NCBI GenBank assembly: GCA_030835385.1
Contig: JAURPI010000025.1
Span: 124,001 to 188,000 of the forward strand
Length of the DNA: 64,000 bases
Direction of reading: 5' to 3'
Source: Alphaproteobacteria bacterium
GTDB taxonomy: Bacteria; Pseudomonadota; Alphaproteobacteria; Rhodospirillales; Rhodospirillaceae
Every line of letters starts with the position of its first letter. The first letter of the stretch is position 1. Below, in pieces: positions 16,926-46,359 of this stretch. The position numbers and the translations under genes are program-made. Below the pieces are notes generated by a model. That model was not told where the DNA came from and made no database searches. It saw only the letters and a program-made list of their open reading frames with translations.

Positions 16926-17384
16926 ATGGAAATCAGAGATTTGTTACAGCCCGATGCTGTAATCACTTTGAAGGCATCGAGTAAGAAGCAAGTGCTACAA
17001 GAAATTGCCAAGAAAGCGGCTGTAGTTACCGGGCTTGGCGAGCGCAAAATTTTTGACACTTTACTCGAGAGAGAGCGGCTTGGCACAACAGGTGTGGGCA
17101 ACGGCATTGCTATTCCACATGGCAAGCTTGCCGAACTCAATGGTTTGTATGGTGTTTTTGCGCGCTTAGAGAAACCTGTCGACTTCGAAGCCATTGACGA
17201 TCACCCGGTCGATCTTATTTTCCTTTTATTGGCTCCCGAGCAAGCTGGTGCTGATCACCTCAAGGCTCTTGCTCGGGTGTCTCGCTTGCTACGTGACCCT
17301 GAGAATTGTGAAAAGTTGCGCGGTGCTGCGAATACCGACGGACTGTATATGGTGCTCATCCAGTCGGAAGCAGAAGCGGCTTAG
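16926..17384 (+). CDS. ptsN: PTS IIA-like nitrogen regulatory protein PtsN
   Basis: This is EIIA-Ntr, the terminal phosphoacceptor of the nitrogen-related PTS, which regulates potassium uptake, kinases and nitrogen responses according to its phosphorylation state. The phosphorylatable His is in 'GNGIAIPHGK' (about His65). The EIIA fold is complete at 152 aa ('VDLIFLLLAPEQAGADHLKALA'). I use the ATG at 16926; the ORF track's TTG at 16920 adds two codons. Its end overlaps the convergent 17381 gene by 4 bp. Confidence 0.95.
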   Translation: MEIRDLLQPDAVITLKASSKKQVLQEIAKKAAVVTGLGERKIFDTLLERERLGTTGVGNGIAIPHGKLAELNGLYGVFARLEKPVDFEAIDDHPVDLIFLLLAPEQAGADHLKALARVSRLLRDPENCEKLRGAANTDGLYMVLIQSEAEAA

Positions 17385-18004
17385 TTTTTCTCTGTTGCCG
17401 CTGGTTGGAATGTCACCCGCGCTTGGTTAATCCGCATTCCTACCGTTATCCAACACATCGCTATAAAAACGTAGGACGCTGGGACAAACCACTCTGGTCG
17501 CGCGCAGACTAGTGCAAAAAATAATATTGTTTCTGTGCCTTCGGCCAACCCGCCAGAATAGAAAAATGACTTCTTGCCCCGATCCTTGGTTTCAACACCG
17601 CGTTTAGCCGCAATAACAGCAAACGCAAGAAACGACGCTCCAGTTCCAATAAAGCTGGCTATAAGAAAGGCTGCAACGACGGCGTTTTCGCGGTCTAAAA
17701 GGGCAAACCCTATGACAACAGTCGCATAGAATATGAAGTCCAATACGATGTCCAAATAGGCGCCGAAATCTGTTTTTTCTGTCGCGCGAGCAATGGCACC
17801 ATCTAACCCATCGGCAACGCGGTTCAGTGCAATGAGAATAAGGGCAACGGTCGGTGCATTAAGGGCCAACGCCGGGAGGGCGCCCACGCCAATAAAAAAG
17901 CCAACCACTGTCATCTTGTTTGCAGTGACCCCGTGCTGCGCCAAAATGCGTCCTGTCCAGTTGATTGGGGGGGCAATCAGACGCACCATGAAGGGATCAA
18001 GCAT
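17381..18004 (-). CDS. CDP-alcohol phosphatidyltransferase family protein
   Basis: This membrane enzyme transfers a phospho-alcohol group between a CDP-activated lipid and an acceptor. The complete family signature DGLDGAIAR..G..LD...D is visible ('RVADGLDGAIARATEKTDFGAYLDIVLD'-type pattern), and several hydrophobic helices follow. At 207 aa it is typical. The acceptor (glycerol-P, inositol, serine, choline) cannot be determined. It is not in an operon with any lipid gene here. Because the window also encodes a Tam41-like cytidylyltransferase and a lipid kinase, a link to sphingolipid head-group synthesis is conceivable but unsupported by position. Confidence 0.85.
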   Translation of the reverse strand: MLDPFMVRLIAPPINWTGRILAQHGVTANKMTVVGFFIGVGALPALALNAPTVALILIALNRVADGLDGAIARATEKTDFGAYLDIVLDFIFYATVVIGFALLDRENAVVAAFLIASFIGTGASFLAFAVIAAKRGVETKDRGKKSFFYSGGLAEGTETILFFALVCARPEWFVPASYVFIAMCWITVGMRINQARVTFQPAATEKN

Positions 18005-30234: not shown

Positions 30235-30996
30235 TTAAAGGTATAATTCAGTAAACGTGCCGTCTACCAGGTGCTGACGAAGCGTGTTTTGCAAATCGAA
30301 CGTGTTCTCATGGGTTAGGGCTAGCTCTGTTGCTGTTCCCAGGGTTTCACCGGATGTAAGGGCGCGGAGCCATATCAATGTTTCCATTGGCACAACGCGC
30401 TGCATCACTGTGTGAGCCGGGCGCAATACAAACCCGCTTTCGGGATGCGAGAAGTCGATCTCAGGTACGCGATCCTGATCTGGCTGATTGACGTGCCATA
30501 GGGTGAAAATAGGGACGTCGGATTCAAGCAATCGAAGAGTCGGGGATACTGAAAACTTTATGTCAGCTATCTGTTCCGCCGGAACCTCAGCTAATCTTTC
30601 AGGGTTCAGGGCGGCGCTGTCGGCGGCAAAATAAGCTTCGACCCGGGTCCATTCCAGGCGTGCAACGTCGGGCAGATATGGCAAATCATTGGCGGGTGCA
30701 AAAGAACTAATAAAATCTGGCAGCGCGTCGCCATACCGAAATAGTGTCGGCTGTTGTGGCGGATGGGTTTTGATGAAGTCCTTCGCTAAGGCCTGAAAGA
30801 ATCGATCTCCGACTATGCGCTGAATTACTGGATAGGCAGCAGATAAAACATCGATCAAACTGTTCAGAGTATTGGCATGGTAAACACCCAATCGGCGTTC
30901 TATTGCACCGCGCGGTGTGGCAACATGTGGCAGCAAGGCCTCCACCGAATTGGTCAAGGCAACGTCTGCGAAGCTTTTCTGAAGGTCATGCAACAC
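30235..30996 (-). CDS. bufC: BufC/HvfC-type DUF2063 partner protein
   Basis: This DUF2063 family protein is the partner of the MNIO enzyme BufB. In bufferin systems it pairs with BufB to present the precursor peptide for cysteine modification. Visible family features are 'MLHDLQKSFAD'-type start, 'RRLGVYHANTLNSLIDVLSAAYPVIQRIVGDRFF', 'FIKTHPP', 'LFRYGDALPDFI' and 'YLPDVARLEWTRVEAYFAAD'. The ORF track start (31050, GTG) overlaps bufB by 65 bp. I prefer GTG 30996 with GAAGG upstream, an 11-bp overlap. It is the third gene of bufA-bufB-bufC. Confidence 0.85.
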   Translation of the reverse strand: MLHDLQKSFADVALTNSVEALLPHVATPRGAIERRLGVYHANTLNSLIDVLSAAYPVIQRIVGDRFFQALAKDFIKTHPPQQPTLFRYGDALPDFISSFAPANDLPYLPDVARLEWTRVEAYFAADSAALNPERLAEVPAEQIADIKFSVSPTLRLLESDVPIFTLWHVNQPDQDRVPEIDFSHPESGFVLRPAHTVMQRVVPMETLIWLRALTSGETLGTATELALTHENTFDLQNTLRQHLVDGTFTELYL

Positions 30997-31891
30997 GGGA
31001 TGAGCCTTCAGATGAAGAGACCGAATCGATGTGACGCTGCGCGGTCTCACCTTCGCCTAAGAGGACCTCAAGGTCAGGGATGTCTGTGTCCCACTCGATC
31101 AAAGTGGGTCGTGGTCCGAGTTTTTCTAACGCCAGCTTATATAGCGACCAAACTGGATCTGCGACGGTGTCTCCATGGGTATCAATTAAAAGACGATCTT
31201 CTCCATCCCCTTCTAAGGAGTGGCCGGCGAGGTGAATTTCACCCACGGCGTCTCCTGGGATTCCGTCGAGATAGGCAGTCGTATCAAACCCGTTGTTTTC
31301 CGCGCTGACATAAATGTTGTTGACGTCGAGCAGCAGTCCACAGCCGGTTCTTTGGGATAGCGCGGTTAAAAAGTCCCACTCGGTCAAAACTGAGTCCACG
31401 AACGTCAGATAGGAGGATGGATTTTCAACCAGTATTTGCTGTCCTAAGCGCTCCTGAGTCTGATCCACGTTTTGGGCAACAGTGACTAGAGCCTCTTCGG
31501 TGTAGGGAAGTGGCAGTAAGTCGTTCACGTATATGTCGTCGACAACGCTAAAAGATAGGTGTTCGGATACCAGCCCAGGCTCGAAGCGATCGACCAGGGT
31601 GCGCAACGCAGAGAGATGGTCCGCGTCAACGCCCTGCGCAGACCCTAACGATAAACCAACACCGTGGCAGCTGATCGCATAATGCTCACGCACTTGCTCT
31701 AGTTGCGCTATGCGTGGTCCACCAGCGGCAAAAAAATTCTCGCTATGGATTTCTATCCATGCCGCTGACGGCGTTCCAGACGCGAAATCAGACATGTGCG
31801 GATGACGAAGCCCGACTCCTGCTCGCGCAGGAATCGGGCCTGGCCGCACAGAGCGTGTCGAAGGCTGGTCCTGGGGAGGGGGAGAGGTCAC
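30986..31891 (-). CDS. bufB: BufB/HvfB-type MNIO (DUF692) peptide-modifying oxidase
   Basis: This is a DUF692 multinuclear non-heme iron oxidative enzyme. Relatives include MbnB and bufferin BufB, which convert precursor cysteines to heterocycles. A TIM-barrel fold with family segments is visible: 'IPARAGVGLRHPH', 'WIEIHSENFFAAGGP', 'ISCHGVGLSLGSA', 'LVSEHLSFS', 'ILVENPSSYLTF', 'LLLDVNNIYVSA' and 'IGEIHLAGH'-like 'VGEIHLAGH', which carry the His, Glu, Asp and Asn metal ligands. The first 15-20 codons before 'RPGPIPARAG' are low in family features, so the GTG at 31891 may be too far upstream. It lies downstream of bufA by 31 bp. Confidence 0.92.
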   Translation of the reverse strand: MTSPPPQDQPSTRSVRPGPIPARAGVGLRHPHMSDFASGTPSAAWIEIHSENFFAAGGPRIAQLEQVREHYAISCHGVGLSLGSAQGVDADHLSALRTLVDRFEPGLVSEHLSFSVVDDIYVNDLLPLPYTEEALVTVAQNVDQTQERLGQQILVENPSSYLTFVDSVLTEWDFLTALSQRTGCGLLLDVNNIYVSAENNGFDTTAYLDGIPGDAVGEIHLAGHSLEGDGEDRLLIDTHGDTVADPVWSLYKLALEKLGPRPTLIEWDTDIPDLEVLLGEGETAQRHIDSVSSSEGSSRVA

Positions 31892-31922
31892 CTTCGACGC
31901 TCGGTCAAAACGAAGGGTCGGC

Positions 31923-32228
31923 TTAGCCGGCCTTCATCTTGGCTTCTTCGTTTACGCCTTCGCCGGGCTCAAGATTGCCGCCCATTTCAACGCAGGTGCC
32001 TTCCGCAACAAGTTTCCATTCGCCTTTGTCGAATGCCACCGTGGATTGCCCCGCGCAGGAATGTGTTCCCGCCGCATTGGCGCATCCGTTCTCACCAGCT
32101 TTGGCGACGCCGTAGCATTTTTCTTTTCCGGCGGCTGACGCTGTCGAAGGAACGGTCATGGCGGCCATTGAAACCGCACCGGCAACGGCGGCGGCAAGTG
32201 AAAGCGTAGAGGGCTTGTTGTGTGACAT
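31923..32228 (-). CDS. bufA: bufferin-type DUF2282 precursor peptide
   Basis: This is a small exported precursor of a bufferin-type RiPP, thought to chelate copper in the periplasm. A signal peptide ('AAAVAGAVSMAAMTVPSTASAA') is followed by the DUF2282 core with four cysteines: 'GKEKCYGVAKAGENGC', 'HSCAG' and 'EGTCVEMGG'. The ATG at 32228 with GGAG six bases upstream is chosen over ATG 32240, giving 101 aa. BufB and BufC follow immediately. No DoxX-like BufD is present. Confidence 0.9.
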   Translation of the reverse strand: MSHNKPSTLSLAAAVAGAVSMAAMTVPSTASAAGKEKCYGVAKAGENGCANAAGTHSCAGQSTVAFDKGEWKLVAEGTCVEMGGNLEPGEGVNEEAKMKAG

Positions 32229-32303
32229 AGTGTACTCCATCTATGGTGCCGCAAAGGCGCGGCCTGAAAAGGGGTCTCCTGATCGACGGGTGCTTAGTAA
32301 CCC

Positions 32304-35581: not shown

Positions 35582-37315
35582 ATGTTCTCACCAACTCCTA
35601 CCAGCAACGCCAGCCTGCCAAAACGATTGGCAGACTTTCCGACTCTTCCAGACGCTCTTGATTATGCGGCGCAGGGAGAAACCGGGTTTAATTTTTATTC
35701 TTCTCGGGGACATTTAAATGAGGTTCTGCCGTTCGCTGACCTGAGCGCAAAGGCCCGGGACGTGGCCACGAACCTTTGTGGCGCAGGCATTGTGTCTGGT
35801 GACCGTGTTGCGCTTCTTGCAGAAACGGTGCCTGCGTTTCTCATCGCTTTTTTTGCCTGCCAATATGCTGGTGTTATTCCGGTGCCAATGCCCACGCCCG
35901 TCGCGTTTGGTCGTCGCGATGCGTACGTCGGTCAAATTCGCAATCAAATCACATCGTCTGGCGCGGTCATGGTGATCACGCCGTTGGAATTTATGCCATT
36001 TGTTGAAGAGGCCACCGACGGACTTGATTTGCTGTTGATCGGGACATTGGATGATCTCAGGGCGCAGCCACAGGCTGATGGTCTTAGTGCAGGCGGTCCC
36101 GATGATCTCTGTTATCTGCAATACAGTTCTGGAAGTACGCGCTTTCCAAAGGGTGTGGCGGTAACTCACGACAACCTGATGGCCAATTGTGCTGCCATGA
36201 ACGTGGCGGTCAACGTATCAACTGAGGATCGCGGTGTATCCTGGTTACCGTTTTACCATGACATGGGTTTGGTGGGTTTCATGCTCGGTTGCCTCACCTC
36301 CCAAACAACTGTCGACTTTATTCCGACGGAAGAATTCGCTCGTCGTCCACTCGCCTGGCTCCGGATCATCAGTGAAAATCTGGGCACGATGTCCTACGGC
36401 CCCAGTTTTGGGTACGAGTTATGTAGTCGGAGATTCTCATCATCAAATGCTGCTGCCCCTAACTTAGATTTATCCAGCTGGCGCGTTGCGGGGATAGGCG
36501 GTGAGATGATTAAGCCGCAGGTCATGCACGCGTTTGCAGACTTGTTTAAGCCGTACGGGTTTGCAGATACGGCCTTTAACGCTTCTTATGGCTTGGCTGA
36601 ATGCGTGCTTGGCGTCAGTTTTAGCACGCCAGGGCACGGCATGTTGCTCGACCATATTTCAAAGCAGGAGTTGGGGGACAATCATCGCGCGGTTCCGATT
36701 GATGATGATGGTTCTGGAGCCGGTCGTACCTTTGTGGCCTGTGGTGGCGTGATTGACGGTCATACGGTCGAGATTCGTGATGACGACGGGGCGGTCATGG
36801 CAGAACGGGATATTGGCCGTGTCTTTTTCTCTGGTCCAAGTGTCATGCAAGGATATTTCGGTGATCAAGAGGCAACGGATGCCTGCCTTCAAGATGGGTG
36901 GCTGGATACGGGCGATCTCGGATATTTCTGGGGAGACCAGTTAGTTATTGTTGGGCGATCAAAAGATATGATGATCGTCAATGGACGCAATTATTGGCCG
37001 CAGGATATCGAATGGACCGTTGAACGCATGGACGGCATGAGGTCTGGCGATACCGCTGCATTCACTCTTGAGCAAGACGACGGTAGTGAACAACCAACCA
37101 TACTGGTGCAATGTAGACCCTCTGCCGCGGACATTCGCGAGGCATTGGTCGATGACGTGCGCTCAAGTGTCCAAAATCAAGTTGGATTGGCGTGTGACGT
37201 TATATTGGTGCCGCCGCGGACCTTGCCGAAAACATCATCCGGCAAGTTAGCGCGCGGCAAGGCCAAGGCGAACTTTCTCAGTGGCGAAATCCAACCCTTA
37301 GCCGCGGGCGCGTAG
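35582..37315 (+). CDS. aasR: fatty acyl-AMP ligase / acyl-ACP synthetase (sphingolipid locus)
   Basis: This ANL-superfamily enzyme activates a fatty acid as acyl-AMP and, by context, loads it on the nearby acyl carrier protein. Motifs are 'LCYLQYSSGSTRFPKGVAVTH', 'SWLPFYHDMGLVG', 'NASYGLAECVLGVSF', 'GWLDTGDLGYFWGDQLVIVGRSKDMMIVNGRNYWPQDIE' and the catalytic Lys in 'LPKTSSGKLAR'. The HDMGL motif is typical of FAAL-type ligases. At 577 aa it is complete. It heads a run (ligase, SDR, ACP, SPT) collinear with the Caulobacter ceramide genes, where the homologue supplies acyl-ACP to serine palmitoyltransferase. Confidence 0.88.
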   Translation: MFSPTPTSNASLPKRLADFPTLPDALDYAAQGETGFNFYSSRGHLNEVLPFADLSAKARDVATNLCGAGIVSGDRVALLAETVPAFLIAFFACQYAGVIPVPMPTPVAFGRRDAYVGQIRNQITSSGAVMVITPLEFMPFVEEATDGLDLLLIGTLDDLRAQPQADGLSAGGPDDLCYLQYSSGSTRFPKGVAVTHDNLMANCAAMNVAVNVSTEDRGVSWLPFYHDMGLVGFMLGCLTSQTTVDFIPTEEFARRPLAWLRIISENLGTMSYGPSFGYELCSRRFSSSNAAAPNLDLSSWRVAGIGGEMIKPQVMHAFADLFKPYGFADTAFNASYGLAECVLGVSFSTPGHGMLLDHISKQELGDNHRAVPIDDDGSGAGRTFVACGGVIDGHTVEIRDDDGAVMAERDIGRVFFSGPSVMQGYFGDQEATDACLQDGWLDTGDLGYFWGDQLVIVGRSKDMMIVNGRNYWPQDIEWTVERMDGMRSGDTAAFTLEQDDGSEQPTILVQCRPSAADIREALVDDVRSSVQNQVGLACDVILVPPRTLPKTSSGKLARGKAKANFLSGEIQPLAAGA

Positions 37316-37325
37316 CGCGCCGGCC

Positions 37326-38270
37326 GTGACCGACCCACTGACCATCGCGATCACCGGGGCCACGGGATTTCTCGGCGGTCACCTCGTGGCGCAAGCACGG
37401 GCCGCTGGTCACCGTGTTCGTGCCTTATCACGCAAGCCGGTGAACACTAACACTAACCAAGATATCGTATGGATCACCGGCGCATTGGAAGATCAAGCCG
37501 CGCTTGAGACCTTGGTTACCGGTGCGGATATTGTGGTGCATGCGGCAGGAGCCATCAAAGCGCTGTCGCGATCTGAATTTTTTCATATCAATAAGGGTGG
37601 AACAGAGGCCGTCGTTCGTGCTGCGTATGCCCAAGGGGTGAAAAGCTTTGTATTGATCTCGTCTCTGGCCGCGCGTGAGCCAACGCTGTCACCCTATGCG
37701 GCAAGTAAACGAGCTGCGGAGTTGGTGGTCGATGACTATGCCGGTCAATTGAACACAATCATTCTTCGCCCGCCGGCCATATATGGGCCAGGCGATGAGG
37801 AGACTGTTAGTCTGTTCCAAATGGCTGTGAATGGATTCATGCTCGCTCCTGGGCACGCTTCTGCGCGCATGTCTCTGGTTCACGTTGGTGATGTCGCTTC
37901 AGCTATTTTGGCGTGTTGTGAACAGCCCCAATTCGAGGTGCTTTTTGAAATCGATGATGGCAAAGATGGCGGGTACCAATGGCGCGATCTGGCAGATGCT
38001 GCCGGTCTGAATGTCGGTCGCCCACTAAAAATTGCTCACCTAGCGGGCGCTGCAGTCTGGTTTATGGGGCTTTTGGGTACGTTAAAGGGCTTGCTGACCC
38101 GGTCTCCCGCTATGTTGACCTTGGCGAAAGTGCCAGAGCTTCGCCATCGTGACTGGGTGGCGAACGCCAAGCGTCCCGCTGGCTGGACCCCAAAGTGGTC
38201 TCTAAAAGACGGCTTCAAAGACGCAATCAATTGGTATTCCTCACAAAATGTTTTGAAACGTTACTTTTAA
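37326..38270 (+). CDS. cerR: NAD-dependent epimerase/reductase, ceramide reductase (CerR)-like
   Basis: This extended-SDR protein is 314 aa. The nucleotide-binding motif is 'IAITGATGFLGGHLVAQA' and the catalytic Tyr/Lys is 'YAASK'. 'ILRPPAIYGPGDEET' is a standard extended-SDR segment. In Caulobacter an SDR next to spt and acp (CerR) reduces the 3-oxo group of oxidised ceramide. The same position here, 10 bp after the acyl-AMP ligase, supports that role. The start is GTG at 37326. By sequence alone it could be another sugar or steroid-type SDR. Confidence 0.8.
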   Translation: MTDPLTIAITGATGFLGGHLVAQARAAGHRVRALSRKPVNTNTNQDIVWITGALEDQAALETLVTGADIVVHAAGAIKALSRSEFFHINKGGTEAVVRAAYAQGVKSFVLISSLAAREPTLSPYAASKRAAELVVDDYAGQLNTIILRPPAIYGPGDEETVSLFQMAVNGFMLAPGHASARMSLVHVGDVASAILACCEQPQFEVLFEIDDGKDGGYQWRDLADAAGLNVGRPLKIAHLAGAAVWFMGLLGTLKGLLTRSPAMLTLAKVPELRHRDWVANAKRPAGWTPKWSLKDGFKDAINWYSSQNVLKRYF

Positions 38271-38374: not shown

Positions 38375-38647
38375 ATGTCGGCTGAACCTAGCGATGGCGC
38401 GTCGCAAGACGTGCGAGCTGCGGTTCTGGAGGTTTTGCAAACTTTCAATAAGACCGGCGTGAACCTTGAGGATGGGACTCGGTTTACAGAAGACCTGAAT
38501 TTCGACTCACTTTTGGTCATGGAGTTCATCGCAGCTCTTGAAGACCGTCTCGATATATCGGTGCCGCTAAACGTGCTTCCGGATATCGAAACTGTGGGGC
38601 AATTGGTCGTCGCGACCGAACAAATTGTTAGGGAAGAACATGGCTGA
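38375..38647 (+). CDS. acpR: acyl carrier protein for sphingolipid synthesis
   Basis: This 90-aa acyl carrier protein has phosphopantetheine attachment Ser45 in 'LNFDSLLVMEFI', flanked by the usual acidic helix II. Its divergence from housekeeping AcpP and its place between the SDR and serine palmitoyltransferase indicate a dedicated carrier that presents acyl chains to SPT. The stop overlaps the spt start (ATGGCTGA), so the two are translationally coupled. A holo-ACP synthase is not in the window. Confidence 0.9.
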   Translation: MSAEPSDGASQDVRAAVLEVLQTFNKTGVNLEDGTRFTEDLNFDSLLVMEFIAALEDRLDISVPLNVLPDIETVGQLVVATEQIVREEHG

Positions 38648-39872
38648 CTTATTTGATCGTTTTGAGTCACTGCTGGCACGCCGAGACTCTTTAGTTGGCG
38701 ATGGGGGTCACGATCCGTTTCAAGTTGAGATGGATGAAGTGCTGTCACAGACCGAAGCCATGATTGGCAATCGTCGCACCATCTTGGCCGGTACCAACAA
38801 TTATCTTGGACTGACGTTTGCGCCAGAGTCATTGCAAGCCGCACATGATGCCCTTGAAGCGGCAGGTACGGGTACCACTGGCAGTCGTGTTGCTAACGGC
38901 ACCTATAGTGGTCACAAGGCATTGGAGCAGGCGTTGTGTTCTTTCCTTGGTAAAGACCACGCCATCGTTTTCTCTACTGGGTATTTAGCCAACCTCAGTG
39001 TCTTGTCGACATTGGTCGGTCCTGACGATTACATCCTTATGGATGCAGACTGTCACGCGAGCATTTATGATGGCGTGCGAATGGGTGACGCTCAGATTAT
39101 TCGATTTAAGCACAACGATGCGGCGGATTTAGATAAGCGGTTGGCGCGCCTCGCGAAGAAGCCGGGCAACAAGCTGATCGTTATTGAAGGTATTTATTCC
39201 ATGCTTGGGGATAAGGCGCCTTTGGATGACATTGTTGCTGTTAAGAAAAAATACGACGACGTATATCTTCTTAGTGATGAAGCGCATTCGCTCGGGGTCC
39301 TCGGTCGTTATGGTCGCGGATTGCCAGAAGAAGCTGACCTCGAAGACGATGTTGATTTTATTGTCGGCACTTTCTCTAAGAGTGTCGGTACCGTTGGCGG
39401 CTTCTGTGTTTCCAGTCACCCACAGTTTGATTTGCTGCGCTTAGCTTGTCGTCCATACATCTTCACAGCCTCCTTGCCGCCATCTGTAGTGGCGTCCGCC
39501 AAAGCGTCTCTGGAGTTAGTTGAAAAAGGTGGCGCGCTGCGCAAACGGTTGATGCGTAATGCGGAGCGCCTTCATTCAGGACTCTCTGCTCTCGGCTTTA
39601 CGCTTGGAGGAGAAATAAGCCCTGTGGTTGCTGTTGTGGCGCCAGAGGTGGAAATCGGTGTGGCGTTTTGGCGCGGACTGATTGACGGTGGTGTTTACGT
39701 CAACCTTGCACTTCCTCCTGCGACGCCACAGAACTTTACGTTGTTGCGGTGCAGTCTCTGTGCCGCTCACACGACGGAGCAGGTCGACCGTATCATCGAA
39801 GTCTTTGCCGATGTGGCCGACTCTCTTGTCATGCTACCGAAGCAACCAAAGAAGAAAGTGGCGCTCGGCTAA
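38640..39872 (+). CDS. spt: serine palmitoyltransferase
   Basis: This PLP-dependent alpha-oxoamine synthase condenses serine with an acyl thioester to give 3-oxo-sphinganine, the committing step of sphingolipid synthesis. PLP Lys247 is in 'GTFSKSVGTVGGF', the Asp in 'LSDEAHSLGVLG', and the ring-stacking His in 'MDADCHASIYDG'. 'GTGTTGSRVANGTYSGH' is the substrate-entry glycine-rich stretch. At 410 aa it is complete and soluble, as in bacterial SPTs. ATG at 38640 (GGGAAG upstream) overlaps the ACP stop; the ORF track start is five codons early. BioF or KBL are alternatives by fold only; the context decides for SPT. Confidence 0.92.
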   Translation: MADLFDRFESLLARRDSLVGDGGHDPFQVEMDEVLSQTEAMIGNRRTILAGTNNYLGLTFAPESLQAAHDALEAAGTGTTGSRVANGTYSGHKALEQALCSFLGKDHAIVFSTGYLANLSVLSTLVGPDDYILMDADCHASIYDGVRMGDAQIIRFKHNDAADLDKRLARLAKKPGNKLIVIEGIYSMLGDKAPLDDIVAVKKKYDDVYLLSDEAHSLGVLGRYGRGLPEEADLEDDVDFIVGTFSKSVGTVGGFCVSSHPQFDLLRLACRPYIFTASLPPSVVASAKASLELVEKGGALRKRLMRNAERLHSGLSALGFTLGGEISPVVAVVAPEVEIGVAFWRGLIDGGVYVNLALPPATPQNFTLLRCSLCAAHTTEQVDRIIEVFADVADSLVMLPKQPKKKVALG

Positions 39873-39893: not shown

Positions 39894-40796
39894 TTAGTTC
39901 AGTCCACCCTGCCGTTTTATCCTGAACAACAAGCGCAGACCAGTGAGAACCGGGTGTGCCCGATCGCGTTCTGTCAGTTCGACCGCAACGCCTGTATGGC
40001 GTTCAATTTTCCAAGCTGCATAGTCCAGTCCGCTGCGGAATGTGAAAGCTGCTTTGATCAGTCGTAAAACGTTGAGAAACCGCCCCCACCAGCGTCGTGC
40101 CCTCCACGCCCAAACCGCACCCGTGTCAGATTTTGCTTCTACCGTTTGGCCTAGGCCAAGCGTTTCAATGGCTGCGGCGCCAACGCGAATGAATCGATCG
40201 CGTTGGGCATTCACCAACTCTTCCGCTTTAGAAGGCGGTTCAGGCCGTAGTTCTGCCCGGTACGTGGCTTGGAAGGCAGTGATCCACAAATCTTCAATTG
40301 TATAGGGGCCGGCCATTAGCGGTGCCGTTTTCTTGAGGAGTGTTGCCACAGCGCGAGAGAGAGCGTGTTCAACAGTCGTGCGAGCGGCGTCATTATTGGC
40401 ATAAACAATGGCGGCTGGCTGCGCAAAGCGGGCCCACAGGGCCGATGCGAAAGTTGTTTCCGCCGTGCCGCGGGCAAATCCGCCGAGTGTCATTACAGCC
40501 ACTTTGGCGCGGACCACCCGACCGTCGAAGTCGCACTCGTGATAATAGACATTCGGTGACAGAAGGGCACCAAAGGCGGCGCTGACCGGGTTTTTGATCG
40601 CATCGCTGAGGTTGTCAACCAGCACATAGAAGTCGAGCATCAGGTTTTCGTCCGTGCCGAGACGAAGGCAAGACCCATAAAACACAACAGCGCGCACGCT
40701 GGCTCCATAGGTATTTTTTAGATGATCGATCATCGCCTCAGCGGCGGGAAAGGCGGCGACCTGGCTTTCGGATTGTATAAGTGACATCAGAGCCAT
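39894..40796 (-). CDS. Tam41-like nucleotidyltransferase (putative lipid cytidylyltransferase)
   Basis: This 300-aa protein contains the nucleotidyltransferase-fold motif 'AVVFYGSCLRLGT' followed by 'LMLDFYVLVDNLSDA', which resembles mitochondrial Tam41, the enzyme making CDP-diacylglycerol from phosphatidic acid and CTP. It starts 2 bp after the lipid kinase stop (ATG 40796, GGTGG upstream), so the two form an operon. A logical reading is kinase makes ceramide 1-phosphate, this enzyme makes a CDP-activated ceramide. Caulobacter's ceramide phosphoglycerate genes lie in a comparable place. The family call is moderate; the substrate is inferred. Confidence 0.7.
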   Translation of the reverse strand: MALMSLIQSESQVAAFPAAEAMIDHLKNTYGASVRAVVFYGSCLRLGTDENLMLDFYVLVDNLSDAIKNPVSAAFGALLSPNVYYHECDFDGRVVRAKVAVMTLGGFARGTAETTFASALWARFAQPAAIVYANNDAARTTVEHALSRAVATLLKKTAPLMAGPYTIEDLWITAFQATYRAELRPEPPSKAEELVNAQRDRFIRVGAAAIETLGLGQTVEAKSDTGAVWAWRARRWWGRFLNVLRLIKAAFTFRSGLDYAAWKIERHTGVAVELTERDRAHPVLTGLRLLFRIKRQGGLN

Positions 40797-40798
40797 GG

Positions 40799-41833
40799 CT
40801 ACCACCGTACAAAGCGAAGTGCTTGGTTGCCATCGATGGTGAGAGGTTTGTCCTCGCTGGCATCGTATAATTCGCCATCCAAAGTGTAGCTGCCGTCGAA
40901 GGCGAAGGTGATGGAGGCGGTGCGCCGAACTGTCCGCTTGTTACTTTGTTTTAGTAGGCGTCTCAGCATATTGGGGACGGTCGAAAGAACCGCACCTGCG
41001 CCTGGTCGAAGACTGATGTAGTGGACCGGGCCATCGCCAACTTTCGGGTCGGGGCGCATACCTAGAAGCATTTTATCCATGGTGGTTGCTATCACGACAT
41101 AAAAGCGCCCGTCCTGTTGCCATCCATTCTGTTCGCCGGTCACTTTAATGGTGCCGCCTTGTTTTCCGCCCGTCATTGCACGCCAGAACAAGATGGCCAC
41201 TGCGGCCACATGCGACACCGTATTTGGCCAACCGCGGGGGTAAATGTTTTTACGACAGTAAAGAATGCCATCAACCACATCTGCACCACCGAAAAATGCG
41301 CCGTGGCGTGTCGGTGCCCCATTTTGGTATAGCGCAAGTACGGGCTGAGTGTGAATGGCATTGGCCAGGTTGCCGTTGGCATTTTTCCTGAGAAGAGACG
41401 CGAGGGCTTCGCGCCGATCTCCAGACAGGCTCCAGGCCGCCGCTGTCATGTTCGTTTTGCCGGAAGGCAGTAACGCCAAGACCGGTGGGGAGGTGTAGGG
41501 GCCATCGTTGAGGAGGCCAGAGAACACCAACCCTGCGGTGCCGTCTCCGCCGTCGACCACGAGGGTTTCAATCTCATTGGCAGCGCATTGGGCAAGAATC
41601 GTAGGCACATCGGTGATTTTGTCGATGATGAAATGTTGAACACAGTCATGAGCAGCCACAATATCGTTCAGCCACCCGCGGTCCTGTTGATTGCGGGTGC
41701 TCATATGATTGCTGAGAATGGCGACCGATGGTGGGGGCAAATCACTAGACCTAAGATGGATAGAGAGAGGCTCTACTCGGCTTACATAATGTTTCAAAAG
41801 CTTTGATTTGACGATCTTGAACTTGCCCGCCAT
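40799..41833 (-). CDS. diacylglycerol/ceramide kinase family protein
   Basis: This lipid kinase of the DAGK catalytic superfamily transfers phosphate from ATP to a lipid hydroxyl. The nucleotide-binding motif is 'TLVVDGGDGTAGLVFSGLL', followed by 'LALLPSGKTNMTA' in place of the usual GGTxN, and a C-terminal beta-sandwich 'FAFDGSYTLDGELYD'. At 344 aa it is normal. In Caulobacter a kinase of this superfamily (CpgB) in the sphingolipid locus phosphorylates ceramide, and the surrounding genes suggest the same here. It is divergent from lptF with a 118-bp gap. The start is uncertain; a later start near 'SVAILSNHM' is possible. Confidence 0.82.
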   Translation of the reverse strand: MAGKFKIVKSKLLKHYVSRVEPLSIHLRSSDLPPPSVAILSNHMSTRNQQDRGWLNDIVAAHDCVQHFIIDKITDVPTILAQCAANEIETLVVDGGDGTAGLVFSGLLNDGPYTSPPVLALLPSGKTNMTAAAWSLSGDRREALASLLRKNANGNLANAIHTQPVLALYQNGAPTRHGAFFGGADVVDGILYCRKNIYPRGWPNTVSHVAAVAILFWRAMTGGKQGGTIKVTGEQNGWQQDGRFYVVIATTMDKMLLGMRPDPKVGDGPVHYISLRPGAGAVLSTVPNMLRRLLKQSNKRTVRRTASITFAFDGSYTLDGELYDASEDKPLTIDGNQALRFVRW

Positions 41834-41951: not shown

Positions 41952-43193
41952 ATGTTCAAAGCTCTCGACCTCTACCTCTTACGGCAGATCATGCCGACAC
42001 TGCTCGTCACCCTCCTGGTTGCGGCCATAATCTTGCTGCTCGAGCGGATGTTGCGGCTGCTCGATATTGCCGTGGGTAACGGTGTCTCGACCCTGGTTGT
42101 GTTTCAGATGCTGTTTAATTTGATTCCCCACTACATCGGTTTGGCGCTACCCGCTGCTTTGTTTCTGGGGGTGCTACTCGCGTTCCGCAAGCTCTCGTCG
42201 CAGTCTGAATTAGATGCGATTCAATCGTCAGGGATTGGTTTAAGCCGACTCATTCGATGGGCCGTGATATTGGGTCTGTTGATGATGATCTTTAATCTGA
42301 TTCTTGTCGGCTATCTGCAACCGATCAGCCGTTACGCCTATCGCGCTCTTTTGTTCAACGTGACCAGCGGTGTTTTAGAGTCTGGTATTGGCGAGGGCGT
42401 GTTTATGGATCTCCCCAACGGTTACACCCTCCGGGTTGAAGAATCTCGTGGGGCAGGTCGTGAGCTGTTTGGAGTATTTGCTCATCAACAAAAAGAGGAT
42501 GGCACTATCATTACGTTGACCGCGGAGCGAGGGCGCCTAGTCACAGGGGGCGCCGAACGCGCAACCAGTCTCCGTTTGTTCCAAGGTAACCGGTCTGAGT
42601 GGTCGCCGGGCGCAACCTCGGCCGACACAGTAAGCTTCGATGTGTTTGACTGGCCTCTCAATCTAAAAGATCTGATTCGGTTCCGCGTACGAGGTGGTGA
42701 TGAACGAGAGTTGACCTTGGATGAATTGTTGCGTGGTTATGTCGCCAATATGGAGGCGGAACGCACGGGCATCAGGCCTGGTGCAGTGAACCCACAAGAC
42801 AACCCTGAGCAACTGGTGCCACCGGCTGCGGTCGCGGCGGAGTTGCATGGTCGCATTGTCTTTTCGCTATCAATTTTGTTCTTGCCGATGCTGGCGGCCC
42901 CGCTAGGTATAATGACCCATCGGGCAAGCAAATCTTTTGGACTGGTTCTCGGCCTATTAACGTTGGTAGTCTATCACAAGATTCTGGAGTTTAGTGAAGC
43001 CTACGCAACGGTCGGGGGAATGTCGGCTGGGCCGGCCTTGTGGGTGCCCTTTGCCCTCTTTATTGGCGGGACATCATACCTATTTCTCAAGACCGAGATT
43101 GTCGCTGGGGCAACCCCAATGCAACGTCTTGAAGACCGATGGACCAATATGACCGGCGGTCTGATTCGACTGTTCCGCGGCAGCCGCGGCTAG
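41952..43193 (+). CDS. lptF: LptF/LptG family permease (LptF position)
   Basis: This is an inner-membrane permease subunit of the Lpt ABC exporter that extracts lipid from the membrane and feeds the periplasmic bridge. Two N-terminal helices, a third, a large periplasmic jellyroll (about residues 130-290) and three C-terminal helices are visible. Family cues are 'LYLLRQIMPTLLVTLLVAA', 'ALPAALFLGVLLAFRKLSSQSELDAIQSSGIGL' and 'GRIVFSLSILFLPMLAAPLGIM'. The ORF track start (41808) adds 48 residues unlike the family; ATG 41952 is better (413 aa). It lies inside the sphingolipid locus, without the usual lptD or pepA neighbours. Confidence 0.85.
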   Translation: MFKALDLYLLRQIMPTLLVTLLVAAIILLLERMLRLLDIAVGNGVSTLVVFQMLFNLIPHYIGLALPAALFLGVLLAFRKLSSQSELDAIQSSGIGLSRLIRWAVILGLLMMIFNLILVGYLQPISRYAYRALLFNVTSGVLESGIGEGVFMDLPNGYTLRVEESRGAGRELFGVFAHQQKEDGTIITLTAERGRLVTGGAERATSLRLFQGNRSEWSPGATSADTVSFDVFDWPLNLKDLIRFRVRGGDERELTLDELLRGYVANMEAERTGIRPGAVNPQDNPEQLVPPAAVAAELHGRIVFSLSILFLPMLAAPLGIMTHRASKSFGLVLGLLTLVVYHKILEFSEAYATVGGMSAGPALWVPFALFIGGTSYLFLKTEIVAGATPMQRLEDRWTNMTGGLIRLFRGSRG

Positions 43194-43205: not shown

Positions 43206-44276
43206 ATGATTTTGTCCTGGTATCTCACGAAGGCCTACCTGTCGCGATTCTTTGCATTGCTGCTGGGCTTGGTCGTATTTCTGCAAATGCTAGACCTGCT
43301 GGCCAACGCGGATTCCGTGTTGGACGGTGGTGGTGACCCGGTCGACTCATTGGCGCGCTACATTATGTTGCGGGTGCCGTCGATCATTGAAACTGTTGCC
43401 CCTTTGGCTGCGCTCCTTGGCGGGCTAACGGCGCTGGTAGTTCTGGCCCGCAACAGCGAGATCATTGCTATGCGTGCGGCGGGTCGATCTGTGCTCAGTC
43501 TAGTCGGTGGCCTTGTGGTTGTTGGCATGGTGTTGGCACTCATGCTCTTTGCCTTCTCTGATGGTATAGTCGTGCGTTTCAACGCGCAGCTCGAGGATTG
43601 GAAAAGCACAGGCTACAAGCCTGGCGGTGAAATCGTTGATGGCAGTGAAGCGTGGGTGATTGAAGGTGACACCATCATCCGGGTTGGACACGTTCTACAA
43701 AACGGCGCCGTGCTCAATGACATTCGCCTGTTTCACCAAGGCGACAAAGCGACGGTCGCAGACATTATCAATATTCGTCTCGCGATTTGGGAAGATACTG
43801 GCTGGAACTTGTTCGAGGTGGCGCGTGTTGGTGGCAACGGTGTCGCGACCCCTGTTGGTCAGCCGACGTGGGAAACAAATCTTACGCCCGAAGATTTTAA
43901 CAAGCTCGCCAACCCACCCAGTGAATTGACCTTTGACGAATTAGAGCATTACGTACGCGAGCTCGCTCTCGGGACCCGCCCAGAATATTATTACGATACC
44001 TGGTTACAACGAAAATTGGCTGGACCTGCGGTGTTGGCTCTGATGCCATTGCTAGCGGCCATCGCGGCTTTCGCCCACCACCGTCAAGGTAGCGCTATCT
44101 TGGTTGTGGTCTATGGAATCTCGCTCGGTTTCGTTTTCATCATCACAGACAATATTTTGCTGGCGATGGGGCAGTTCGGCGCTCTGCCGCCGGTCGTGGC
44201 GGCCTGGCTGCCTTTGGCGCTGTTCGGCACCATAGGTTTATGGATTGTGGTAAACTTAGAGAACAGAGGCGCTTGA
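43206..44276 (+). CDS. lptG: LptF/LptG family permease (LptG position)
   Basis: This is the second permease half of an LptB2FG-type exporter. N-terminal helices ('LTKAYLSRFFALLLGLVVFLQMLDLL', 'VPSIIETVAPLAALLGGLTALVVLARNSEIIAMRAAG') lead to a periplasmic domain with strands such as 'SEAWVIEGDTIIRVGHV', then 'WLQRKLAGPAVLALMPLLAAIAAFAH' and two further helices. At 356 aa it is a standard LptG size. It follows lptF by 12 bp. The ATPase LptB is encoded at 14.3 kb. Whether the substrate is LPS, a sphingolipid or both is open. Confidence 0.88.
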   Translation: MILSWYLTKAYLSRFFALLLGLVVFLQMLDLLANADSVLDGGGDPVDSLARYIMLRVPSIIETVAPLAALLGGLTALVVLARNSEIIAMRAAGRSVLSLVGGLVVVGMVLALMLFAFSDGIVVRFNAQLEDWKSTGYKPGGEIVDGSEAWVIEGDTIIRVGHVLQNGAVLNDIRLFHQGDKATVADIINIRLAIWEDTGWNLFEVARVGGNGVATPVGQPTWETNLTPEDFNKLANPPSELTFDELEHYVRELALGTRPEYYYDTWLQRKLAGPAVLALMPLLAAIAAFAHHRQGSAILVVVYGISLGFVFIITDNILLAMGQFGALPPVVAAWLPLALFGTIGLWIVVNLENRGA

Positions 44277-44363: not shown

Positions 44364-45179
44364 ATGGCATTAAAGATCGGCTTTTGGTCCGACCGGGAAT
44401 ACCACTTAGACCGAATGAATCTAGGTGATCTCGCTGCCGCGTACTTTCAATATTACGCCATAGCCGCGTATTTCGCGTTAGCTGCGGTGACAGGCGCCTA
44501 TGCGACTTGGGCTTGGATGAACGGTCTCGCGACCCTGACCGGAATTGCGGGCGCCGTTGTCGCGACGATTCTGATTTACCCATTGGTTTGGTATGTGTTG
44601 CACCGGTGGATTCTGCATTCCAAGTGGATGTGGAAATCCAAGCTTACCGCACCGGTCTGGAAGCGCATTCACTACGATCATCATTCCGATCCAAACAACC
44701 TCAAAGTTTTGTTTGGTGCACTCTATACAACCTTGCCAACCGTCGCTTTGGCTACGGTCCCTTTTGGGTTTGCTCTGGCTGGTTGGCCTGGTGCTGCTGC
44801 GGCTTTATGTGCAGGCGTTCTGCAAACGTGTTTCTACGAGTTTATCCATTGCATCCAGCACTTGGGGTATGTCCCCCAATGGGGCTGGGTTAAGCGCATG
44901 AAGAAGTTGCACATGGCCCACCACTTTCACAATGAGACTGGCAATTTCGGGATCACGAATTATTTGTGGGATCGTGTGCTCGGCACAATGTACGAGCAAA
45001 TTAAATTGCGACCCCGGTCAGAAACAGTGTTTAACCTTGGGTACGATGAAGAGGTAGCAAAGGACTATCCCTATGTGGCCGAGTTGACGCCCAACTGGCC
45101 GCATACCGCTAATCCAGTTCATCGTCAGCGTGAATATGCGCAAGAGTCTGATGATGGCGAACTCGCCCCCTCATCTTAA
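44364..45179 (+). CDS. sterol desaturase / fatty acid hydroxylase superfamily protein
   Basis: This integral membrane di-iron enzyme hydroxylates or desaturates lipid chains. The His-box pattern is clear: 'HRWILH', 'HYDHHSD', 'HCIQHL' and 'HMAHHFHNETGNFG'. Two to four hydrophobic helices surround them. At 271 aa it is typical of the bacterial fatty-acid hydroxylase group. It sits between lptG and the bCerS-like gene, so hydroxylation of the sphingoid base or the N-acyl chain is the most likely job. The position of hydroxylation cannot be predicted. It has 'AAYFQYYAIAAYFALAAV' as its first membrane segment. Confidence 0.87.
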   Translation: MALKIGFWSDREYHLDRMNLGDLAAAYFQYYAIAAYFALAAVTGAYATWAWMNGLATLTGIAGAVVATILIYPLVWYVLHRWILHSKWMWKSKLTAPVWKRIHYDHHSDPNNLKVLFGALYTTLPTVALATVPFGFALAGWPGAAAALCAGVLQTCFYEFIHCIQHLGYVPQWGWVKRMKKLHMAHHFHNETGNFGITNYLWDRVLGTMYEQIKLRPRSETVFNLGYDEEVAKDYPYVAELTPNWPHTANPVHRQREYAQESDDGELAPSS

Positions 45180-45207: not shown

Positions 45208-46359
45208 ATGACAGCATCAGACATCACAGTTCGGCCGGTCACCACGCGTGCGGACCAGGAAGCTTTCTTGGCGTTGCCAGACGCCTTGTTCAGCGATGAT
45301 CCAGTGTGGGTACCGCCGTTGAAAATGATGGTGCGCGACCAATTAAACCCAAAGAAGAATCCTTGGTTTAGTCACGGCGAAGCGCAGTTGTTTCTCGCTG
45401 AACGCAATGGCGCGGTGTTGGGACGACTCTCAGCCCAAGTCGACCGCAGTCACCTTGAGCAACACAATGATGCGACAGGCTTCTTTGGCTTTTTCGACAG
45501 TGTTGAAGAGCAACCGGTAGCAGACGCTTTGTTTGAAGCGGCTGAGAGTTGGCTCAAGGAGCGGGGCATATCCCGTGTGCGCGGGCCATTCAGTCTCAAC
45601 ATCAATGAAGAATCTGGCTTGCTAGTTGAAGGCTTTGAAAGTCCGCCGCGTGTCGCCATGGGCCACGGCCAGCCTTTCTATCAAACACTGGTAGAGGAGG
45701 CTGGATTTGAGAAAGTGCGAGACCTATTCGCGTTCCTAACACCCATGGATACGGCGCTGCCCTACAAACATATAAAGTTGTTGCAACGCTCTATCGACCG
45801 TAATCCGGGCCTCACATTCCGTCATCTCGATCCGAAACACTACGACGAAGATATTCGCATTCTCGTTGACCTGTTCAACGGAGCCTGGGCTGAAAATTGG
45901 GGATTTATTCCCCTAACCGAAGCTGACGCGAAGCATATGGCCAATAAATTCAAGATGATCCTGATTCCAGAGTTGGTCTGGTTTGCGTTCTACGAAGGAA
46001 AGCCGGCCGCAATGGCGGTGGCATTGCCCGACCTTAATGAAATGATCCGTGATCTCGGCGACACCCTGTGGCCTATGGGCTGGATGAAACTGGCGTGGCG
46101 GGTTCTCACCCGCCGCACCTGGTCATCTGGGACGCGGGTTCCACTCATGGGCGTTGCCCCGCGGTTTAAAAACAAACCTCTTGGATCGGTGTTGGGCTTT
46201 ATGGTGATGGATGCGATCCGCCGCGAATCTCTCAAACTCAATATGCCGGTCTGCGAAATGAGTTGGGTGCTGGAAGATAACACCCAAACCCGCCACTCCC
46301 TCGAAACCATCGGTGGCCGGGTCTACAAAACCTACCGGATGTACGAGAAAGCGCTTTAG
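45208..46359 (+). CDS. bcerS: bacterial ceramide synthase-like N-acyltransferase (bCerS)
   Basis: This 383-aa GNAT-fold protein belongs to the family of the Caulobacter ceramide synthase, which N-acylates the 3-oxo-sphinganine made by SPT. The family segment 'RVRGPFSLNINEESGLLVEGF' is followed by 'PRVAMGHGQPFYQTLVEEAGF', 'FNGAWAENWGFIPLTEAD' and a C-terminal 'GVAPRFKNKPLGSVLGFMVMDAI'. No other gene in the locus could supply this step. It ends 4 bp into the convergent GNAT gene. Residue-level confirmation needs an alignment, so I hold the function as probable. Confidence 0.82.
   Translation: MTASDITVRPVTTRADQEAFLALPDALFSDDPVWVPPLKMMVRDQLNPKKNPWFSHGEAQLFLAERNGAVLGRLSAQVDRSHLEQHNDATGFFGFFDSVEEQPVADALFEAAESWLKERGISRVRGPFSLNINEESGLLVEGFESPPRVAMGHGQPFYQTLVEEAGFEKVRDLFAFLTPMDTALPYKHIKLLQRSIDRNPGLTFRHLDPKHYDEDIRILVDLFNGAWAENWGFIPLTEADAKHMANKFKMILIPELVWFAFYEGKPAAMAVALPDLNEMIRDLGDTLWPMGWMKLAWRVLTRRTWSSGTRVPLMGVAPRFKNKPLGSVLGFMVMDAIRRESLKLNMPVCEMSWVLEDNTQTRHSLETIGGRVYKTYRMYEKAL

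Follow-up and report, generated by a model that had tools for sequence, protein, structure and literature searches.

A lipid kinase and a Tam41-fold nucleotidyltransferase in an alphaproteobacterial sphingolipid locus: a candidate CDP-ceramide route

A lipid kinase gene and the gene of a nucleotidyltransferase (NTase) with the fold of Tam41 lie side by side in the stretch of alphaproteobacterial DNA analysed here (64,000 nucleotides, hereafter the window), and the pair is real and well supported as the counterpart of cpgB-cpgC of Caulobacter crescentus. Judging from the sequences and a structure model, a route from ceramide through ceramide 1-phosphate (C1P) to CDP-ceramide is plausible for the two products, and they probably make CDP-ceramide in this way, as CpgB and CpgC orthologues. 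This route had been put forward in the initial annotation and offers the best mechanistic account of the pair in view of fold, motifs, co-occurrence with spt and the position of CpgB. It is not a new proposal, since CC_1161 (CpgC) was already suggested in 2024 to make an NDP-activated ceramide, with the nucleotide left open (PMC11324152), and the idea is thus largely anticipated, being essentially in print as a suggestion for Caulobacter. A literature search across 5.39 million papers did not find the term 'CDP-ceramide', and, by title or abstract, none of the four papers joining ceramide, cytidylyltransferase and Tam41 was about a CTP:C1P reaction. What is added here is the evidence from the Tam41 fold and its residues, the wide distribution of the pair, and the finding that it occurs apart from the other cpg genes.

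Both open reading frames were found on the minus strand, the kinase (344 aa) at 40799..41833 and the NTase (300 aa from the ATG at 40796) at 39894..40796. With the kinase stop codon at 40801-40799, the gap between the genes is 2 bp; an alternative NTase start, a GTG at 40805 (ORF 39894-40805), would overlap the kinase stop by 7 bp. On one side the serine palmitoyltransferase gene spt, ending at 39872, converges on the NTase gene with 21 bp between both stops, and on the other an LptF2-like gene diverges from the kinase (likely ATG at 41991; that of the kinase is at 41833). The pair is thus a unit of its own, as the initial annotation had it when describing two genes 2 bp apart in their own operon. 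A promoter and terminator scan gave marginal matches only.

The flanking genes are all on the plus strand. At lower window coordinates than the pair are an AasR-like acyl-AMP ligase/acyl-ACP synthetase (35582..37315, equivalent to CC_1165; NF006624 fatty acyl-AMP ligase, 774.6 bits, cut-off 600), a CerR-like NAD-dependent epimerase/dehydrogenase (37326..38270, equivalent to CC_1164; PF01370, E 2.5e-31, present in 45 of the 78 retrieved NTase loci), an AcpR-like acyl carrier protein of 90 aa (38375..38647, equivalent to CC_1163; FDSL motif, its family lying between Spt and CerR in 39 loci) and Spt itself (38625..39872, equivalent to CC_1162; NCBIfam NF047599, 621.7 bits, cut-off 500). On the far side are an LptF2-like permease (41991..43193; TIGR04407, 217.4 bits, slightly under the cut-off of 230, in 51/78 loci) with a probable role in sphingolipid export, an LptG2-like permease (43206..44276; TIGR04408, 270.8 bits, cut-off 240), a fatty acid hydroxylase (44364..45179; PF04116, E 8e-21, recurring in 29 loci) that may hydroxylate ceramide, and a GNAT-like protein (45208..46359; weak Acetyltransf_1 match, E 0.0015, family in 52/78 loci) that takes the place of CerS (CC_1154), the ceramide synthase. 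Given these AasR-, CerR-, AcpR-, LptF2-, LptG2-, hydroxylase- and CerS-like genes, the region is a bacterial sphingolipid locus. Further away, at 30235-32240 on the minus strand, stand three genes, encoding a small Cys-containing secreted protein (31923-32240), a DUF692-like protein (30986-31891) and a DUF2063-like protein (30235-31050), which we take to resemble a bufferin-type metal-binding peptide cluster; homologues of this set adjoin the sphingolipid locus in several related loci.

The identity of the pair follows from gene order. In Pelagibius litoralis (locus L085) the order is hydroxylase, CerS, CofC-like, CpgD-like, metallophosphoesterase, LptF, LptG, CDP-alcohol phosphotransferase, kinase, NTase, after which come convergent Spt, AcpR, CerR and AasR; this closely parallels CC_1154, 1153, 1152, 1158, 1156/1155, 1159, 1160, 1161 and then 1162-1165 (domain descriptions in PMC11324152). 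In Pseudomonas luteola (L125), which has good contiguous orthologues of the Caulobacter genes (PMC11324152), CpgA, kinase and NTase stand in matching order, as a subset of the Caulobacter set. From this gene order, together with the InterPro CDP-DAG synthase domain published for CC_1161 (PMC11324152), the window NTase is the orthologue of CC_1161 (CpgC) and the kinase that of CpgB (CC_1160), the two proteins at the core of head-group synthesis for phosphosphingolipids. Mutants in CC_1161 are without ceramide phosphoglycerate (CPG), and CC_1161 is required for the formation of CPG from C1P (PMC11324152); the mechanism by which CpgC takes C1P to CPG is called unidentified in later work, from 2025-2026 (PMC12275187, PMC13228409). 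An assignment of the NTase as CpgD orthologue was ruled out, CpgD being a separate family whose members accompany the NTase in 13 loci.

The kinase matches Pfam DAGK_cat (PF00781) at E 2.6e-11 and carries GGDGT, which bears out its first description as a lipid kinase. GGDG is found in 67 of the 73 kinases adjoining NTases and the CxxxCxxC motif of eukaryotic CERK in none of the 73; CpgB of Caulobacter also has GGDG and is without that motif (PMC10331486). The Caulobacter precedent that had been invoked for the kinase holds as well, in that the window protein occupies the genomic position of CpgB, which as a purified protein is a proven ceramide kinase, accepts DAG comparably to ceramide in vitro and whose deletion removes C1P and leaves phosphatidic acid (PA) unchanged (PMC10331486). 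By analogy with CpgB, its orthologue, the window kinase is proposed to be a ceramide kinase.

In the proposed route, (dihydro)ceramide would be made by the AasR, AcpR, Spt, CerR and CerS proteins and phosphorylated by the kinase to C1P, whereupon the Tam41-fold NTase would transfer CMP from CTP to C1P, giving pyrophosphate and CDP-ceramide, the sphingolipid counterpart of the CDP-DAG of Tam41. A later enzyme would displace CMP by a head-group alcohol (glycerate in Caulobacter), and LptF2/G2 would carry the phosphosphingolipid product outward. The reasoning is that CPG has one phosphate, linking ceramide and glycerate, that the kinase supplies it, and that the joining of C1P to an alcohol needs activation, direct condensation of C1P with glycerate having been judged unfavourable (PMC11324152), so that an enzyme of the Tam41 type would give CDP-ceramide. 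The experimental basis is limited to Caulobacter, namely the ceramide kinase activity of CpgB (PMC10331486) and the genetic requirement for CpgC between C1P and CPG (PMC11324152). Within this analysis, the basis is the fold, the motifs and the gene order of the NTase, and we infer that CTP is the donor and C1P the acceptor, as well as the export step and what the final transferase is. The window genome holds one ordinary CdsA, so its CDP-DAG is already accounted for. Weighing against CDP-ceramide are the moderate TM-scores of the NTase with Tam41, the position of the window protein below the Pfam level, the existence of eight genomes with Spt but no NTase, and the fact that CpgB also phosphorylates DAG in vitro, by which PA is a conceivable substrate.

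The window NTase by itself matched no curated family, and Tam41_Mmp37 (PF09139) gave no match at E up to 10. Within its family, 31 of 99 members match PF09139 (best E 2.6e-9), and relatives in three loci exceed the curated cut-off of 24 bits (L122 with 37.3 bits, L125 with 27.0 and L055 with 24.4); the window protein is a remote Tam41 homologue, below Pfam-level membership. An AlphaFold2 model built from 38 aligned sequences (pLDDT 92.9, pTM 0.90) was compared with the PDB by Foldseek, and the best five matches were all Tam41 (6ig2 and 6ig4, from S. pombe, and 7ecd, a Firmicutes Tam41 with CTP-Mg), over the whole chain and at E 9e-9 to 1.5e-7. The agreement with 7ecd is moderate (TM 0.56/0.61), and the structural alignment with Tam41 has 17-18% sequence identity. 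The Tam41-like call of the initial annotation, for which structure prediction against Tam41 had been named as the check, is thus upheld by the model and by the divergent relatives, the window sequence alone having no Pfam match.

Sequence comparison adds a motif order, K(Y)xV, GRFxxP, SYxx(D/E)xR, common to the NTase family and S. pombe Tam41. One member aligned to the Tam41 crystal sequence shares the pattern IKYGV...GRFQKP...SLSYLGDIR with it, in a single alignment of E 0.35 that supports the structural result and cannot stand alone. A search of the PDB with profiles A1, A2 and A3 (hmmsearch) gave no Tam41 match. PF09139 found nothing in Caulobacter vibrioides, and since it is silent in the window genome too, its silence there does not discriminate. 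Aminoglycoside NTases follow Tam41 in the Foldseek ranking with far weaker E-values, and an aminoglycoside- or toxin-type NTase was ruled out by this rank and by the locus; viral models returned weak generic NTases only, and a weak DUF4126 match (E 0.016) was judged to be chance.

The same ranking bears on the nucleotide and acceptor. The NTase could make NDP-ceramide from ATP or GTP, or transfer to phosphoglycerate or a later lipid: base specificity is unreadable from sequence, the nearest structural neighbours after Tam41 are ATP-using ANT enzymes, and PMC11324152 leaves the nucleotide open. However, the closest structures are those of the CTP-using Tam41, and the pathway already has a CTP:phosphoglycerate cytidylyltransferase of a different fold in CpgD (PMC12275187). 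Activity with another nucleotide or acceptor is therefore considered unlikely, and CTP with C1P is preferred.

Across genomes, the kinase-NTase pair is the constant part of variable loci. Members of the NTase family are present in at least 587 stretches of GTDB genomes, their hosts being alpha- and gammaproteobacteria as well as records labelled Desulfobacterota, Nitrospirota and others. A kinase was found in 74 of the 78 retrieved loci, and in 72 of these 74 it is on the strand of the NTase gene, with its stop at -29 to +70 bp relative to the start of that gene, an adjacency that is not due to chance; by distance correlation, kinase-NTase (0.88) stands barely above NTase-Spt and NTase-LptF (both 0.87), which makes this comparison uninformative. 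Other genes are recorded less often among the 78 loci (CpgA-like in 24, CofC-like in 33, CpgD-like in 13, metallophosphoesterase in 36, flippase family in 17), in counts that are lower bounds because flanks are sometimes short. In a Kordiimonas-type variant, the pair is accompanied by a flippase-like membrane protein (~526 aa) and by a protein of ~210 aa that looks secreted, and there is no cpgA nearby (L060, L071, L072, L086, L087, L090, L091, L099, L100, L102, L105, L110, L114, L117, L119, L121, L124); L110 and L124 are from the cultured species Eilatimonas milleporae and Iodidimonas muriae. One genome, G004, has two copies of the locus (G004:C29:19242-20147 and G004:C13:2516-3421; L047, L049) with NTases 87% and 71% identical to that of the window; this may reflect either a true duplication or an assembly of mixed origin.

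In 385 evenly sampled alphaproteobacterial genomes, with Spt called by strict score, the NTase is present in 42, Spt in 49 and both in 41 (Fisher 6e-46, phylogeny not corrected), and in the only NTase genome without strict Spt, G393, a lower-scoring Spt-like gene adjoins the NTase. Eight Spt-bearing genomes are without the NTase even with a wide profile, and no kinase was found in the six Spt neighbourhoods inspected in such genomes (L148, L149 and L150 in G125, G339 and G416; L152, L153, L154). Three congeners among the NTase-less genomes have AasR-CerR-Spt-metallophosphoesterase-CerS only. Genomes of this kind may make sphingolipids without the phosphate head-group route of the pair.

This distribution (41 of the 42 NTase genomes carry Spt) agrees with the expectation, set down with the original suggestion, that the NTase would keep company with spt rather than with phosphatidic-acid genes, and it tells against a second CDP-DAG pool, in which the kinase would convert DAG to PA and the NTase would be a true Tam41 that happens to stand beside sphingolipid genes. 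The characterised Tam41 enzymes do use PA, the bacterial one making CDP-DAG (PMC11646218), and CpgB phosphorylates DAG comparably in vitro (PMC10331486). Yet an NTase nearly confined to Spt-bearing genomes, a CdsA already in the genome, the loss of C1P and not of PA upon cpgB deletion (PMC10331486) and the loss of CPG in CC_1161 mutants (PMC11324152) leave such a pool quite improbable.

Invariant positions in the alignment of 99 sequences are Y40-G41, D55, K98, W121, R123, Q126, E182, R184, E186, K248, K263 and H267, and S42 is found in 98. The palm aspartate, D55, is present in 99/99 and followed at D+2 by tyrosine in 97/99, and no other acid is conserved within the NTase domain. Since Tam41 itself retains just one of the three NTase carboxylates (PMC11646218), the presence of catalytic acidic residues, on which the suggestion had been made to depend, is to be judged by comparison with Tam41 rather than with canonical NTases, and the invariant D55 has the same single-carboxylate pattern. 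Having one canonical carboxylate left would also suit a kinase partner with a non-catalytic or regulatory role, or an enzyme condensing C1P with glycerate directly, and in the Zik model, as PMC11324152 cites it, CpgC takes C1P to CPG in one step. Such readings are very unlikely: D55, Y40-G41, K98, R123, Q126 and E182/R184/E186 stay invariant in 99 diverse sequences, which fits catalysis, Tam41 is active with just this one carboxylate, and unactivated condensation is energetically unfavourable (PMC11324152).

If the NTase makes CDP-ceramide, an enzyme has to use it, and the initial annotation had pointed to the CDP-alcohol phosphotransferase at 17381-18004 (minus strand). The gene is real (PF01066, 45.8 bits), but as a necessary user it does not stand, and it is at most a candidate member of the pathway. 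It is one of three such enzymes in the window genome, with a PgsA type and a PssA type beside a Psd-like ORF; no CpgA homologue was found in this genome. Of the 15 NTase-bearing relatives, 9 have a homologue of 17381-18004, as do 2 relatives that lack the NTase (by genus, 5/7 NTase genera against 2/40, p 3e-4); no match was found in the NTase-bearing G005, G006, G011, G028, G029 and G030, nor did the gene turn up in the regions flanking the 78 retrieved loci. G005 and G006 are congeners, and G006 (98% complete) has the pair with only PgsA- and PssA-type CDP-alcohol phosphotransferases, by which an obligate partner was ruled out; 17381-18004 may be an optional user of CDP-ceramide. The gene adjoins ptsN/rpoN-type genes, and in several genera the distance between it and the NTase is about 10-25 kb.

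A gene of the CC_1153 type, CofC-like (PF12804), sits apart from the locus in the window genome, at G000:C10:94696-95595 (L143:8697-9596, minus), divergent from a Polysacc_synt flippase (L143:9691-11046, plus). Among 61 relatives, a threshold of E 1e-10 or better gives homologues in 15/15 with the NTase and in 0/46 others (by genus, 7/7 NTase genera against 0/40, p 2e-8); for two of the 15, whose identity is only 24-30%, strict orthology is uncertain. The structure model of the CofC-like protein is most similar to 2dpw, a Thermus transferase that is uncharacterised, and next to enzymes of the KdsB/IspD/GlmU type. The substrates activated by true CofC relatives are phospholactate, phosphoenolpyruvate or 3-phosphoglycerate (PMC8498797). 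Because the Caulobacter CC_1153 mutant still makes CPG (PMC11324152), the CofC-like protein probably comes into play later than the NTase.

With their Tam41 fold and active-site pattern, the relatives of CpgC point to a candidate reaction for the step from C1P to CPG, that of CTP and C1P to CDP-ceramide. If true, Tam41 chemistry would extend from glycerolipids to sphingolipids, and a shared logic, kinase then cytidylyltransferase, would serve lipids able to replace lipopolysaccharide. More tentatively, and at slightly under even chances, CDP-ceramide could be a common phosphosphingolipid branch point in many Gram-negatives, made by a module of ceramide kinase and Tam41-type enzyme with lineage-specific head-group enzymes; the CpgA-less lineage of the window would then pair the module with the unlinked CofC-like NTase by the flippase and acquire its head group by an undescribed route.

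Compared with CpgB-CpgC of Caulobacter crescentus (CC_1160-CC_1161; CCNA_01218-01219), the window has the same adjacent kinase and CDP-DAG-synthase-domain protein by spt, in the same order relative to spt, and a kinase with the DAGK/LCB5 fold and GGDG of CpgB, the locus kinases being likewise without CxxxCxxC. Unlike that of Caulobacter, its locus is without neighbouring cpgA, CC_1158, CC_1153 and cpgD; with no CpgA homologue in the genome and the CC_1153-like gene elsewhere, the final head group may differ from that of Caulobacter. CpgD (CC_1152) is also a cytidylyltransferase and belongs to the same Caulobacter pathway as CpgC, but has a COG1213 fold and a soluble phosphoglycerate substrate, and acts at the step from CPG to CPG2. 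CdsA (PF01148) has the same reaction type, CDP-lipid from CTP and lipid phosphate, whereas its integral membrane fold is unrelated and it is encoded separately, in single copy, in the window genome. With Tam41/TAMM41 (6ig2, 6ig4, 7ecd) the NTase shares the fold, the motif order, the single palm aspartate, the C-terminal helical region and, as proposed here, cytidylyl transfer to a lipid phosphate; in contrast to Tam41, it is linked to sphingolipid and not phosphatidate genes, and its proposed acceptor is C1P.
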